Virus record (IMG/VR): IMGVR_UViG_3300002483_000007 | Coordinates: 1 to 20,223 of that record | DNA: 20,223 bases | From: a virus | Reading direction: 5' to 3' (one strand) | Shown here: one piece after another, positions 14,880 through 20,223 of the stretch | How positions within the stretch are numbered: position 1 is the first letter of the stretch | Layout of the letters: each line of letters opens with the position of its first letter | Made by a program: the position numbers and the translations under genes | The notes under the pieces: model-generated | What the model was told of the DNA's origin: nothing | What the model saw: the letters and a program-made list of their open reading frames with translations, nothing else | The model's database searches: none

Positions 14880-15632
14880 TTACCCCACAAAGAAGTCAGC
14901 TGGCATTTCATGCTCTAGCCTAATTACTTCTCTTAGTCTTTCTATTTCTGCCATTGCATCTTCAAATATCTGCCGGCCATTTATTGTTACACCACCAGGA
15001 AGTTGCATGCCTTCAAATTTAATTAAGTTAGCGCCCCATTGTCTTTTAATTAATGCTGTAGTATAGTTCTTTAACCACATATCATTAAATACAGAAGTAT
15101 GAGTTGTAGGTTCTACAATTTCAAATACTTCCGCAACAAGATAATCACCTTCTACTAAATCATCTGTTTCTTTTTCACCATGAATATAAAGTCTGTTCTG
15201 ATGTCTAGAAAACTGGACAAGAGGATGTCCATTGAGCTTCATATCAATTAATGATAGGTACTGCTGCATTTGTTCGTAATAAGCTAGATCACCCATATAC
15301 GAATGCATGTTAGCAATATCATTTAAATGTAACTGGTATTTAATATCAAAGAAGTCTCTTGTCAAAGAACCAGACGCAACCGGAAATAACTTTGAGACAA
15401 AGATAATATTAGATGAGATTGAGATGTATTCGTTTGATACATCAGTAGCAGTGATCTGATGTTTTAAGAACGTACGAAGAGTCGCGTCAGAATGAAACTG
15501 TTGATAGTATTGTAAAGCTTCATCTACTCGATCTTCAAGCTGATCTGGATCTACGTTGATTTCAATGACCGGATCACCTAGCTCTCTGAGGCAGTAATCA
15601 ATCAGTCCTTGTCTTGTGCTTGGGTTCGCCAT
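14880..15632 (-). CDS. 13: Neck protein gp13
   Basis: gp13 is the head-completion (neck) protein that binds the portal region after packaging and works with gp14. The 250-residue product (T4 309) starts 'NPSTRQGLIDYCLRELGDPV', then 'INVDPDQLEDRVDEALQYYQQFH', which is the typical N-terminal helical segment of this family. It also carries 'WGANLIKFEGMQLPGGVTING' and a C-terminal helix 'IFEDAMAEIERLREVI'. AGGATAC lies upstream of the ATG. A canonical late promoter is 30 bases upstream, so it begins the gp13 to gp17 unit. Confidence 0.95.
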   Translation of the reverse strand: MANPSTRQGLIDYCLRELGDPVIEINVDPDQLEDRVDEALQYYQQFHSDATLRTFLKHQITATDVSNEYISISSNIIFVSKLFPVASGSLTRDFFDIKYQLHLNDIANMHSYMGDLAYYEQMQQYLSLIDMKLNGHPLVQFSRHQNRLYIHGEKETDDLVEGDYLVAEVFEIVEPTTHTSVFNDMWLKNYTTALIKRQWGANLIKFEGMQLPGGVTINGRQIFEDAMAEIERLREVIRLEHEMPADFFVG

Positions 15633-15673: not shown

Positions 15674-18235
15674 TTATGATTTAACTACTAACTCTGTAGC
15701 TGAAATTGCTGTTCCTGCGAATACACTTGGGCTACCCGCAGTTTCACTGATCGTTCCATCTGTTTGTACAAAGTATTGCTGTCCTGGAGTAAGACCACTT
15801 TGATTATTAGATACAGAGCCTATGACATCTATTGATGCAGGTTGACCGCTTGCTACTTCGCCTCTTACATCTACACTGTGTACCACAGCACTTCCTGTGT
15901 TACCCGTATTTTCTTTCCAAGCAAAAACAAGATTATTAGTTCCACCATCTACAATTACTGATGGACGTAATACAGCGTTATCATCACTATAGTAGGCAAC
16001 TGGTGAAGAAAAACTGCCAATAGTAGTTCCACTTACTTTTCCAGTTACAAACCTACCTTTACCAGAAGGAGTGTATGAAATGTAATTTATAACAATTTGG
16101 CCAGTTGGAGAATGATAAGTAGGGTCAAAGTTACCAGTTACTCTAGAATCAAATTGAACAGGTGTTCCAAAAGAAATACTAGTTCCTGATACTGTGCCTA
16201 CAACTGCCATCCCCTTATCGCCGTTACCTCCATCTTTATATGTAATTACTGATTTATTGTTTACAGGATCATATACAATACCAACATCTGACGTTGAGGA
16301 TGAGTTATACGTTGCCGCGGAGCCGAAAGAGATAGACGTACCAGATACTGTTCCAACTACGGCTGTACCGTAACTTGAATTATTGCTGTCCATAAATGCG
16401 ATAACTATCTTTTGTGCGCTGCTGTCGTAAATTGCTTTTATGTTGTAACTAGCGTTGTTTCCATGAAATCTAACCTCTGTACCAAAACTTATGCTTGTCC
16501 CTGAAACCGTACCAACAATTGCTGTACCCCTGTTGCTAGTTCCTGAGTCTCTGTAAACAACTACTGTCTTCCCTGAATTAACATCATACACACAACCTTG
16601 TATTTGTGTGTTTTGCGTGTTTAAAACAGTAGGACTTCCAAAACTTATAGATGTTCCTGAAACCGTACCAACAATCGCTGTACCATAGTCACTTCCAGCC
16701 TCATCACAAAATGCAATAACTACTTTATCATTAGCGGTATCATAAGCAACAAAGAAATCTTTACTCTTAGCTGATTCAAAAACTACGGGAGTACCAAAAG
16801 AAATACTTGTACCACTCACTGTTCCAACTACAGCTTGTCCGTAAAAAGAATTTCCTTCATCCTGATACGCTATTATAATCCTTCCAACATCAGGATCATA
16901 AACCATACCAATATGTTCTGATCCCATAGCGGATGACTCAAAAGTAACTTTTGACCCAGCTACTGCAGGATTCGCAAAACCCCTCGATATACCAATGTAG
17001 TTTTCTGAGGTGAGGGTATCAAAACCTGTAGTAACAACGGCTGCTGTACCGTAACTTGAATTTGCGCTATCACTCCAAGCAACAACTATTCTACCAGCGT
17101 TAGCGTCATAAACACTCTTTGGAACAGCTGATGCATCGGAATCAATAGTTACTGTAGAACTATCAACATCAAGAGAAGTACCATTTATTGAAGCACCTAT
17201 AGCTTTAACTGGCGTGCCCGAATCATCTACGAAAGTTATCATAAACTTTCCAGCGGCGGTGTTGTAATTTATGTCATTGTTATCTGCTCTAGTAGAAAAG
17301 TATACAACTTTAGAACCAACGCTTATAGATGTTCCGCTTACTGTTCCAACTACAGCTGTTCCTACATCGCTGTTACCTTCATCTCTAAAGACTATGACAA
17401 CCTTGTTGTTAACGGGATCAAACGCTATGCCTTGATCTCTAACGTGATCGGTGCTGTACACAGTAGCAGATCCAAAAGATATGCTTGTTCCGCTTACTGA
17501 TCCTACTATCACATTTCCTGCGCTATCAGGATGATTTCTGTATGCTATCACAACTTTATTATTTGTGCTATCAAACGTGCATGCGGTGTAGTATGTGGCA
17601 TCTGTTTCAAAATTAACAGGAGTACCCCAAGATATTGATGTTCCACTCACTGTTCCTACACATGCTTGTCCTCTGTCACTTTCATCAATATTTTGGTATA
17701 CTACAACAACTTTACCACTTGCGCTGTCAAATGTAACTGATTGGTAATCAGTTCTATCAGTCACATAATGCGCTTCTGAACCAAAGCTTATGCTTGTTCC
17801 ACTTACTGTGCCAACAACTCCATTACCGCGGCTACCACTGCTGTTGTCAGTATAAATTATTACAACTTTATTATTAGTAGTATCAAAAGTAACATTGATA
17901 TTAGTTGTGTTTCCTACGTTAAAAACAGTAGGGCTTCCAAAACTAATAGAATTATCAGAGGAGTCTACTGTTCCAACAATTGCTGTGCCTCTGTTTGAAT
18001 TGCCCTCATCTCTATATGCAACAACAACTTTATTGCTATTGGAATCATAACCAATATCAATATTATTACTGGTTGCTGATTCAAAAACAACGGCTGTTCC
18101 TGCTGAAGCAGCTGTGGCAACCGGTAAGCTAACAGTTCCGTCAGAATTAACAATAACTGGTCGGCCGCTGGGTAATGTACCACTAGCTATCGCTTTTAAC
18201 TCACCAGTACTTTCAGCCCCTATACGTTTTAGCAT
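15674..18235 (-). CDS. Repetitive fibre-like protein with two seven-repeat blocks
   Basis: This 853-residue protein has a short N-terminal segment (1-45) with 'ASGTLPSGRPVIVNSDGTVS', then 14 copies of a roughly 52-residue repeat. Each repeat has a 'YDxxxxKVVIAYRD' strand pair, a 'GNSxxGTAIVGTVSGTSISFG' turn and strands, and a final 'xxVVF'. Repeat strands begin near residues 63, 117, 169, 221, 272, 324 and 376, then after an 18-residue extra linker ('TSENYIGISRG') near 446, 498, 550, 603, 655, 707 and 762. Seven plus seven units suggest two seven-bladed beta-propellers. The C-terminal domain (about 792-853) has 'LTPGQQYFVQTDGTIS' and 'SVFAGTAISATELVVKS', nearly shared with the preceding gene. 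There is no signal peptide or membrane segment. Position before gp13, where T4 has fibritin and short fibre genes, suggests a virion fibre or adhesin; that role is inferred. Confidence 0.88.
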   Translation of the reverse strand: MLKRIGAESTGELKAIASGTLPSGRPVIVNSDGTVSLPVATAASAGTAVVFESATSNNIDIGYDSNSNKVVVAYRDEGNSNRGTAIVGTVDSSDNSISFGSPTVFNVGNTTNINVTFDTTNNKVVIIYTDNSSGSRGNGVVGTVSGTSISFGSEAHYVTDRTDYQSVTFDSASGKVVVVYQNIDESDRGQACVGTVSGTSISWGTPVNFETDATYYTACTFDSTNNKVVIAYRNHPDSAGNVIVGSVSGTSISFGSATVYSTDHVRDQGIAFDPVNNKVVIVFRDEGNSDVGTAVVGTVSGTSISVGSKVVYFSTRADNNDINYNTAAGKFMITFVDDSGTPVKAIGASINGTSLDVDSSTVTIDSDASAVPKSVYDANAGRIVVAWSDSANSSYGTAAVVTTGFDTLTSENYIGISRGFANPAVAGSKVTFESSAMGSEHIGMVYDPDVGRIIIAYQDEGNSFYGQAVVGTVSGTSISFGTPVVFESAKSKDFFVAYDTANDKVVIAFCDEAGSDYGTAIVGTVSGTSISFGSPTVLNTQNTQIQGCVYDVNSGKTVVVYRDSGTSNRGTAIVGTVSGTSISFGTEVRFHGNNASYNIKAIYDSSAQKIVIAFMDSNNSSYGTAVVGTVSGTSISFGSAATYNSSSTSDVGIVYDPVNNKSVITYKDGGNGDKGMAVVGTVSGTSISFGTPVQFDSRVTGNFDPTYHSPTGQIVINYISYTPSGKGRFVTGKVSGTTIGSFSSPVAYYSDDNAVLRPSVIVDGGTNNLVFAWKENTGNTGSAVVHSVDVRGEVASGQPASIDVIGSVSNNQSGLTPGQQYFVQTDGTISETAGSPSVFAGTAISATELVVKS
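15863..16954 (-). repeat. Second seven-unit block of the 853-residue fibre gene
   Basis: Seven tandem units of about 156 bases each (residues about 428-791). The protein repeat is well conserved at the GTVSGTSISFG core, while the DNA is diverged between units. The last unit runs into the C-terminal domain. Confidence 0.85.
17030..18094 (-). repeat. First seven-unit block of the 853-residue fibre gene
   Basis: Seven tandem units of about 156 bases each (residues about 48-402). Units 1-5 keep the VSGTSIS-type core; units 6 and 7 are degenerate, the same order of decay as in the matching block of the neighbouring gene. A linker with 'ENYIGISRG' follows. Confidence 0.85.
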
Positions 18236-18237
18236 TG

Positions 18238-20223
18238 TTACCCTTTCACTATAAGTTCGGTTGCTGATATGGCAGTTCCTGCAAAGACGCTTGGATCATC
18301 TGCTGTCGTTCCTATTGAGCCATCAGACTGAACAAAGTATTGCTGTCCTGGCGTTAATGCACTATGATTTTTAGATATAGCGCCTTGTGTGTCTACCAAA
18401 ACTGTTTTACCACTTGCCACTTGGCCTCTTGAAATGCTGTTGAATCCAAGTGCAACCACTCTAGCCTTTCCGTTAGTAGAAGTCTGATCTCTTCCTGAAA
18501 ATACTAATCTCTCATTTGTGCTATCATAAGCGACATCATTGTATGTTGCATCGCCATCAAATATATTAATAGCTGTATCAAAGGTTAAAGATGTACCTGA
18601 AACAGTTGCTGATATAGCTTTACCTTTTGATCCAGCCTGATATGCAAGCACAGCTTTTCCTGCACTGCTGTCAAAAACTGCATTAGGATAAGCCATATTG
18701 GTATCACTTCCAAATTGAACAGCAGTTCCAAAACTAATTGACGTTCCAGACACAGTTCCTACTACTCCGTAAAGCGCATTATTGGTGTGCTCATAGAACA
18801 CTACTACTTTACCACTTACGGGATCAAACGTTACAGCATTATCTGGAGAGTTGTTTGTATTGTAAACTACTTCTGAACCAAAACTAATAGATGTTCCTGA
18901 TACAGTACCTACGATAGCCGTGCCTTTACCAGAGTTTCCATCGTCTTGGTATACAATTATAACCTTATTATTAGTAGAATCAAATGTCATATTTTTATCA
19001 CCAGTATTCGCTGCGTTGAAAGTTACTTCAGATCCAAAACTTATAGATGTACCTGAAACAGTTCCAACTATCGCTTTACCGTGATCACTTGATGCTCCAT
19101 CTTTATAAGAAATTACAATTTTGTTACTGTTACTATCAAAGGTTGCAGCTAAGTTAGTTGTTGCGTTGCCTGAATTATAAACAACAGGTGTTCCAAAACT
19201 AATTGACGTACCACTCACTGTTCCAACTACAGCTGTTCCGTAATTTGAATTGCCACCATCATAGTAAACAATAACAACTTTACCTGAGTTACTATCAAAT
19301 CTAACATGAGCATCAGCAGTGCCGTTATTTGTGTAAACAGCAGAACTACCAAAAGAAATAGAATTATCAGAAGGATCTACTGTTCCAACAATCGCTGTAG
19401 AGTAATTTGAATTGTTACCGTCTCTATATGCTATCACAACTTTATTATTTGTGCTGTCAAATCCAATTCCTGACTGTGTTGCATCTCCGGATTCAAATAC
19501 GGTTTCTGAACCTAGAGCCTGTGTCCTACTAGAGACTAGGTTTCTTCCTGCACTTATTCCTATATAACTCTCTGTAGTAAAGTTAGTTAATGCAAAGCTG
19601 CTGTCTAGAGCTTGTAGTGTTCCATAGCTTGAATTTCCAGTATCTCTATAAACAAGTAGAGCTTTTCCTGCGCTAGCATCATATACAACGCCTGTATCTG
19701 TTATGTTTGCAGAACTTATAACATTTTCTGAGCCAAAACTAATAGATGTACCAGAAACGGTTCCTATTTTTCCTGCCATACCATAATTTTTATCATAAAA
19801 GAGAAAGAATTGATTGTTTGCAGTATCATATGCTAGGTCGGCATCATAACCGGCAGCAGATCCACTGAAAACTGTTTCTGAACCAAAGGACATTGATGTT
19901 CCGCTTATTGTACCAACAATCGCGGTTCCACGGCTGCTATTTCCACCATCAGGATAAGTAACCACTATTTTGTATGAATCAGGATCGTATGCTGCTGTTA
20001 TGCCGCCATCAGTAGTAGCCGCATGAAAAGCTGCGGTAGTTCCACCACTTATGGATGTTCCACTCACTGTTCCAACAACGTAGTATCCATGACCGGTTGC
20101 ATTGTCTTGATAAAAAACTGCTGTTTTATTTGCGTTGGCATCATATACTGTATTAATACTTGTATTAACCGTTCTATTAGCAAGTGTAGCAGTGGTACCA
20201 AAACTTATGTTTGTACCAGATAC
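18238..20223 (-). CDS. Repetitive fibre-like protein, partial at the window edge
   Basis: The reading frame is open to the last base of the window, so the 5' end is missing; 661 codons are visible. A GTG at 20067 inside a repeat is not a start, because the 52 codons upstream form exactly one more repeat unit. Visible content, numbering from the edge: four units (near 27, 79, 132, 181), a linker with 'TTESYIGISAGR' (about 216-227), seven units (near 254, 309, 362, 414, 466, 517, 566) and a C-terminal domain (about 596-661) with 'LTPGQQYFVQSDGSIG' and 'SVFAGTAISATELIVKG'. The block after the linker again has seven units, supporting seven-bladed propellers. It is a paralogue of the next gene, which starts 2 bases after its stop, so the two are probably co-translated. 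A virion fibre or adhesin role is inferred from position. Confidence 0.87.
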   Translation of the reverse strand, partial: VSGTNISFGTTATLANRTVNTSINTVYDANANKTAVFYQDNATGHGYYVVGTVSGTSISGGTTAAFHAATTDGGITAAYDPDSYKIVVTYPDGGNSSRGTAIVGTISGTSMSFGSETVFSGSAAGYDADLAYDTANNQFFLFYDKNYGMAGKIGTVSGTSISFGSENVISSANITDTGVVYDASAGKALLVYRDTGNSSYGTLQALDSSFALTNFTTESYIGISAGRNLVSSRTQALGSETVFESGDATQSGIGFDSTNNKVVIAYRDGNNSNYSTAIVGTVDPSDNSISFGSSAVYTNNGTADAHVRFDSNSGKVVIVYYDGGNSNYGTAVVGTVSGTSISFGTPVVYNSGNATTNLAATFDSNSNKIVISYKDGASSDHGKAIVGTVSGTSISFGSEVTFNAANTGDKNMTFDSTNNKVIIVYQDDGNSGKGTAIVGTVSGTSISFGSEVVYNTNNSPDNAVTFDPVSGKVVVFYEHTNNALYGVVGTVSGTSISFGTAVQFGSDTNMAYPNAVFDSSAGKAVLAYQAGSKGKAISATVSGTSLTFDTAINIFDGDATYNDVAYDSTNERLVFSGRDQTSTNGKARVVALGFNSISRGQVASGKTVLVDTQGAISKNHSALTPGQQYFVQSDGSIGTTADDPSVFAGTAISATELIVKG
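18454..19509 (-). repeat. Complete seven-unit block of the partial fibre gene
   Basis: Seven tandem units with a period close to 52 residues, residues about 239-590 counted from the window edge. The first unit has the longer 'GTVDPSDNSISFG' turn, matching 'GTVDSSDNSISFG' in the first unit of the neighbouring gene, so the blocks are aligned unit for unit. Confidence 0.85.
19606..20223 (-). repeat. Incomplete repeat block running off the window
   Basis: Four units plus the tail of another are visible before the 'ESYIGISAG' linker. If the block also has seven units, these are units 4 to 7, and three or so lie beyond the edge. Confidence 0.75.

Follow-up and report, generated by a model that had tools for sequence, protein, structure and literature searches.

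Tandem paralogous genes of a T4-like phage encode a likely adhesin family of predicted seven-bladed β-propellers exchanged whole between conserved ends

Phage propeller adhesins are already known as a kind, so far from few single examples. The receptor-binding protein gp45 of phage phi11 has a propeller whose ring is completed by an N-terminal strand (PMC4901313), and the myophage PhiKZ carries a seven-bladed propeller protein, gp131C, at the baseplate periphery with a putative receptor-binding role (as cited in PMC4901313). The Photorhabdus lectins PLL, PLL2 and PHL also form seven-bladed propellers, and the sugar sites of PLL sit between blades (PMC6943638). A tail fibre and its partner gene are common to morphologically different marine phages in the case of Alteromonas phages A5 and V22 (PMC10579305). 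In the cultured Lentibacter phage ICBM2, the closest isolate identified, gp48, whose annotation reads tail fibre or tail assembly chaperone, is followed by the repeat protein gp49 and then by a gene annotated as tail-fibre assembly, and variable tail-fibre genes are described in that region (PMC6775973).

The locus described here resembles each of these in part. Its proteins share a predicted propeller with phi11 gp45, which differs in having five blades, in forming a homotrimer with stem and tower, and in coming from a Staphylococcus siphophage. PhiKZ gp131C is absent from the top 50 fold matches of our model, was not compared directly, and no three-gene cassette is described for it in PMC4901313. 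The A5/V22 system consists of one tail fibre with a chaperone, and no propellers are described in the abstract (PMC10579305). ICBM2 gp48 is 43% identical to a small 85-aa protein of our locus, and gp49 is a repeat protein that has diverged in sequence but is predicted to fold similarly; unlike our locus, ICBM2 has a single propeller gene with a different N-terminus and few repeats detectable by sequence. New here are the family itself, which is present in hundreds of viral contigs, its three-gene cassette, and a rule by which its heads are exchanged.

The stretch of DNA analysed (the window) comprises the first 20,223 nucleotides of the IMG/VR record IMGVR_UViG_3300002483_000007; the full viral record (G000) is 99,580 bases long. 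Its relevant features are as follows, in window positions unless marked G000.

14880..15632, minus strand: T4 gp13-like neck protein gene (PHROG 211, head-tail adaptor Ad2), the cassette boundary in this phage
15674..18235, minus strand: PROP3, third propeller gene of the cassette, 853 aa, 7+7 predicted blades
15677..15844, minus strand: PROP3 C-terminal module, residues 798-853, ending LTPGQQYFVQTDGTISETAGSPSVFAGTAISATELVVKS
15845..16957, minus strand: PROP3 predicted propeller 2, residues 427-797, seven repeats
16958..17005, minus strand: PROP3 inter-propeller linker, residues 411-426
17006..18100, minus strand: PROP3 predicted propeller 1, residues 46-410, seven repeats
18101..18235, minus strand: PROP3 N-terminal position-specific tag and conserved strand, residues 1-45, beginning MLKRIGAESTGELKAIASGTLPSGRPVIVNSDGTVS
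18238..20223, minus strand: PROP2, second propeller gene, truncated by the window edge (whole gene G000 18238-20799, 853 aa, 7+7)
18241..18426, minus strand: PROP2 C-terminal module, residues 792-853
18427..19515, minus strand: PROP2 predicted propeller 2, residues 429-791, seven repeats
19594..20223, minus strand: PROP2 predicted propeller 1, portion within the window, residues 193-402
G000 20809-21066, minus strand, outside the window: 85-aa gene between propeller genes 1 and 2
G000 21070-23667, just upstream and outside the window: PROP1, third paralogue, 7+7 repeats
G000 23679-24053, outside the window: 124-aa gene before the cassette

A repeat HMM finds 14 units in PROP3, seven over residues 45-410 and seven over residues 426-797 (independent E-values 4e-27 to 4e-14), with a step of 51-54 residues between repeats and of 70 across the linker. 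As this HMM was derived from these same repeats, the E-values speak for self-consistency only; 300 shuffled copies of the three proteins yielded no domain at E ≤ 0.01. The repeats of PROP3 are near-identical in places. Within the window PROP2 shows four repeats, a linker and then seven, and the complete protein is 7+7, although its first repeat is weak (score -2.3 by one HMM and 5.1 by the other). All six blocks of the three tandem paralogues thus have seven repeats each. A first-pass annotation, made from sequence alone, had reported two tandem genes with repeats 51-55 residues apart: seven, a linker 18 residues longer than the normal spacing and seven more in the 853-residue protein, and a linker followed by exactly seven in its neighbour. 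Both layouts held, the second with the whole PROP2 gene extending to 7+7 beyond the window edge; the spacing had to be corrected for PROP2, whose steps run from 49 to 54, and the two genes are in fact three, with the 85-aa gene between PROP1 and PROP2. The third gene, the two small partner genes and the non-obligatory pairing of propellers (many relatives have only one) lay outside that annotation.

The count of seven was followed in two samples of relatives. The first came from an alignment search that took in 79 viral loci out of at least 475 candidates, and exactly 7 or 14 repeats were counted in 157 of 188 complete relatives; the remaining 31 have fewer confident repeats, with lengths mostly in the same two classes (about 460-526 and 816-956 aa) and weak repeats visible in the gaps. 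That search was biased towards two-block proteins, so single-block members of a divergent clade served as queries for a second sample. It contained 119 distinct complete proteins, 98 with 7 repeats and 12 with 14 (110/119 together); the other nine show 3-6 detected repeats, and no protein with 8-13 was present among the 119. Repeats follow one another at an average of 52.3 residues (standard deviation 2.0). The HMM counts overlook degenerate blades in the 31/188 and 9/119 exceptions. A count of 7 or 14 is kept at identities of about 40% and below and changes only by sevens. Such a fixed count is a requirement of a closed ring and not of an open shaft, and it supports the propeller reading; the first-pass annotation had named freely varying block counts in homologues as a refutation, and the relatives do not show them. 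Three seven-repeat relatives of about 740-750 aa (L015:3757-5994, L026:3901-6117 and L081:4472-6709) carry some 250 extra residues after the propeller, in a domain that remains unidentified, and a few proteins of the second sample are as long as 981 and 1398 aa.

Structure prediction gave the same picture. Block 1 of PROP3 alone, modelled in AlphaFold2 with 81 relatives, is a compact domain (pLDDT 92.4, pTM 0.89). The full PROP3 chain, modelled with 66 relatives, reaches a pLDDT of 90.3 with a pTM of only 0.59; because of this low value, the relative placing of the two rings is undetermined in what is a single-chain prediction without oligomer. The best Foldseek matches of the block 1 model are the seven-bladed lectins PLL, PLL2 and PHL, with TM-scores of 0.63-0.66 (query) and 0.75-0.77 (target), and for the full chain the matches are solved structures that each contain a pair of seven-bladed propellers (AIP1, Elp2, Pwp2). 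Each repeat is predicted to comprise four strands, with seven A-B-C sets per block, and in each block blade 7 lacks a fourth strand of its own and a lone strand lies ahead of blade 1. We read this as the usual 3+1 ring closure, arguing from the predicted strand pattern and the fold matches; the coordinates were not inspected. The seven-bladed fold proposed at first pass is supported by the near-fixed count, by the predictions for the block alone and the whole protein, which had been suggested as a check, and by the matches to closed propellers, yet it remains a model prediction with no experimental structure. The rival reading, an open-ended β-solenoid or fibre shaft with seven repeats by descent only, can draw on the near-identity of some repeats, as is seen in shafts. 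It is all but excluded by the persistence of 7 or 14 repeats in divergent relatives, by shifts in sevens only, and by the compact predicted domains.

The likeness to PLL does not extend beyond the fold. The single block superposes on 5c9l and 6rgg with TM-scores of 0.66/0.77 and 0.63/0.76, at about 12% identity, and a PDB profile search returned no PLL chain at E ≤ 1, so that no sequence homology to PLL was found. The tryptophans of the PLL sugar sites are unmatched (the three phage proteins contain 3, 3 and 1 Trp), and the PLL proteins are free bacterial lectins. A PDB sequence search with the PROP3 protein found nothing, and the profile search found antibody light chains only (E about 0.1-0.3). 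For the propeller proteins and the two small cassette proteins of this genome there is no credible Pfam or PHROG family, all matches being short or weak: Cyclophil_like2 passes the Pfam cut-off over 36 residues only and was judged spurious, while Agenet and WDR35 were rejected as short or below cut-off. A search of papers turned up neither the repeat motif nor any pelagiphage propeller. Many sialidases appear among the fold matches and propeller tail enzymes are known in phages, which speaks for a second rival reading, that the propellers are not passive binders but attack surface glycans enzymatically, as sialidase-like proteins or depolymerases of another kind. We regard it as unlikely: sialidases fit worse (TM about 0.5) than lectins, and no strict Asp box (S.D.G..W) occurs in the three proteins, although catalytic residues were not systematically modelled.

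The phage is marine and T4-like, with contractile-tail genes. Upstream of the propeller genes lie tail-fibre and baseplate genes, and downstream of PROP3 the gp13-like neck gene is followed by gp14- and gp15-like genes; the propeller genes meet the criterion, applied to tail fibres, of being encoded among tail-fibre and neck genes. The host-recognition island of pelagimyophages always ends at the neck gene gp14 (PMC7029224), and the propeller cassette adjoins gp13/gp14, the position at which that island ends. In relatives the cassette opens with a gene of about 124 aa; propeller gene 1 comes next, and a second small gene (about 85 aa) separates it from propeller genes 2 and 3. Three propeller genes are present in 48 of the 64 loci that have complete propeller genes only; other loci may be cut by contig ends. 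The number of propellers per gene varies, with cassettes of 1-1-2, 2-1-1, 1-1-1 and 2-2-2 among them. The cassette is kept across dozens of contigs, in marine phages that otherwise differ, and the virion genes downstream of it vary, among them a PHROG 3287 virion protein in several contigs and gp13 in this phage. The same order occurs on contig L096, binned with a marine euryarchaeote, whose propeller protein is only 26% identical to the query; L096 also carries relatives of viral genes and is a phage that was binned wrongly or else a virus infecting that archaeon.

The 85-aa gene is conserved (L014:4275-4526 and relatives), and its product is possibly an assembly partner. A 97-aa plus-strand ORF (G000 20780-21073) was set aside: its recurrence in relatives is due to its overlap with the conserved 85-aa gene on the opposite strand. 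The 124-aa gene is likewise conserved (e.g. L018:1237-1596), with relatives in HTVC033P, S-SKS1 and Phage DSL-LC04 (“putative lectin”). HTVC033P was rejected as a carrier of the cassette, having the 124-aa neighbour without propellers.

Comparison of 47 three-gene cassettes separated the behaviour of the protein ends from that of the propellers. For the N-terminal 30 residues, the best match came from a protein at the equivalent gene position in 133 of 137 cases; for the last 60 residues this held in 130 of 141, and for the propeller region in only 63 of 141. When propellers were scored singly, which removes the best-hit bias from two-propeller proteins, 72 of 159 agreed in position, against 55.5 expected from position frequencies. 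A propeller in L060 gene 2 has a 94% identical counterpart in L036 gene 1, and one in L082 gene 3 has a 93% identical counterpart in L075 gene 1; in such cross-position pairs, identity rises at the propeller start and drops past the propeller end. Replacement is also seen between closely related T4-like phages. This phage and L012 are 96-99% identical in neighbouring structural genes, 99% in the 124-aa gene, 95% in PROP3 and 93% in PROP2, whereas in PROP1 the two propellers are only 42% and 38% identical between an N-terminal tag of 90%, a linker of 77% and a C-terminal module of 86%. With L048, the neighbouring genes are 94-97% identical and the available part of PROP3 55%, a replaced stretch. 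From the high identities across positions and the L012 and L048 replacements it follows that whole propellers are a unit of exchange. The rule is clear: the ends are set by gene position and the heads are swapped as whole rings. The propeller genes also meet the tail-fibre criterion of fast change or replacement relative to neighbouring structural genes.

These exchanges bear on a third rival reading, under which the propellers would not be adhesins but structural parts of the tail, namely hub or nozzle domains such as those in the T7 and SU10 nozzle proteins. In its favour, the core of the SU10 nozzle protein is a seven-bladed propeller (PMC9509320), and in podovirus-like contigs the cassette adjoins the PHROG 3287 virion structural gene. 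Hub proteins are conserved and single-copy, unlike the propeller paralogues: the three genes differ in propeller number, swap propellers and are replaced between near-identical phages, and the cassette is present in a T4-like phage with contractile-tail genes. We consider a hub or nozzle role very unlikely.

The best explanation, and a likely one, is that the products of the three genes belong to one family of adhesins on the virion, in which receptor-binding heads can be exchanged while the docking ends stay fixed; each protein would hold one or two predicted seven-bladed propellers between short conserved ends. The repeat counts, the cassette, the position-specific ends and the propeller exchange rest directly on sequence and the fold on prediction, whereas virion location, docking and receptor binding are inferred. 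The N-terminal tag and C-terminal module, specific to the three gene positions, would presumably set the docking site on the virion or the assembly, perhaps assisted by the two small cassette proteins. With about 52 residues, each blade would form a four-stranded sheet; a strand from the block start would close the ring, and proteins would lengthen or shorten by a whole ring and not by a single blade. Host recognition would then shift by recombination that replaces whole propellers as interchangeable heads.

Adhesion is inferred from the genomic location, from replacement between near-identical phages, from the precedent of propeller receptor-binding proteins in phages (PMC4901313), and from a fusion in Marine virus AG-345-O18, where a divergent propeller and a similar C-terminal module follow a segment that resembles proteins annotated as tail fibres in T4-like cyanophages. 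The fused fibre sequences are not recognised by PHROGs or Pfam. The N-terminal ends of L050 and of ICBM2 gp49 seemed by eye to be tail-fibre anchors, which searches did not confirm. The adhesin role suggested at first pass has gained independent support in the tail-fibre fusion, the allele replacement and the propeller shuffling, but is still inference, with no direct evidence of virion presence or binding; the “whisker” structure suggested alongside it is neither supported nor excluded. A fourth possibility is that these are decoration or lectin-like proteins that retain the phage close to cells, mucus or particles but do not determine which host is infected. Short N-terminal tags in place of long fibre shafts, a lectin-like best fold match and several separate tail-fibre genes in the same genome would fit; the location in the tail-fibre region and the AG-345-O18 fusion speak against it, and we hold it very unlikely compared with host-deciding adhesins.

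For the adhesin reading, the predicted binding face would likely be the one bearing the D-A and B-C loops, which are variable. A blade of four antiparallel strands places these loops together on one face, opposite the A-B and C-D turns. When 12 close pairs were compared, differences were counted at 207 of 1454 loop cells of the D-A/B-C face and at 58 of 988 of the other (odds ratio 2.7). The pairs are not independent and the loops are possibly just less constrained; since surface loops are more variable than tight turns whatever the fold, this is weak, supporting evidence on its own. A bolder reading, which we could as readily see fail as hold, is of a mobile three-gene adhesin cassette common to unrelated marine phages, whose position-specific docking ends take seven-bladed propellers singly or paired and which gains receptor-binding combinations by trading whole propellers. 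The family would aid the finding of host-recognition genes in unannotated ocean phages, and the role of propeller exchange in host recognition becomes directly testable.

Two further regions of the record, both outside the window, deserve mention. A second array of tandem paralogous tail-fibre-like proteins (G000:25022-35723; 652, 436, 435, 759 and 869 aa) has PHROG 19943 and 24898 in its first four proteins, the unit being apparently doubled in some. Far from the tail cluster, a run of genes at G000:76111-85205 resembles sugar-nucleotide and glycosyltransferase genes by their first residues.
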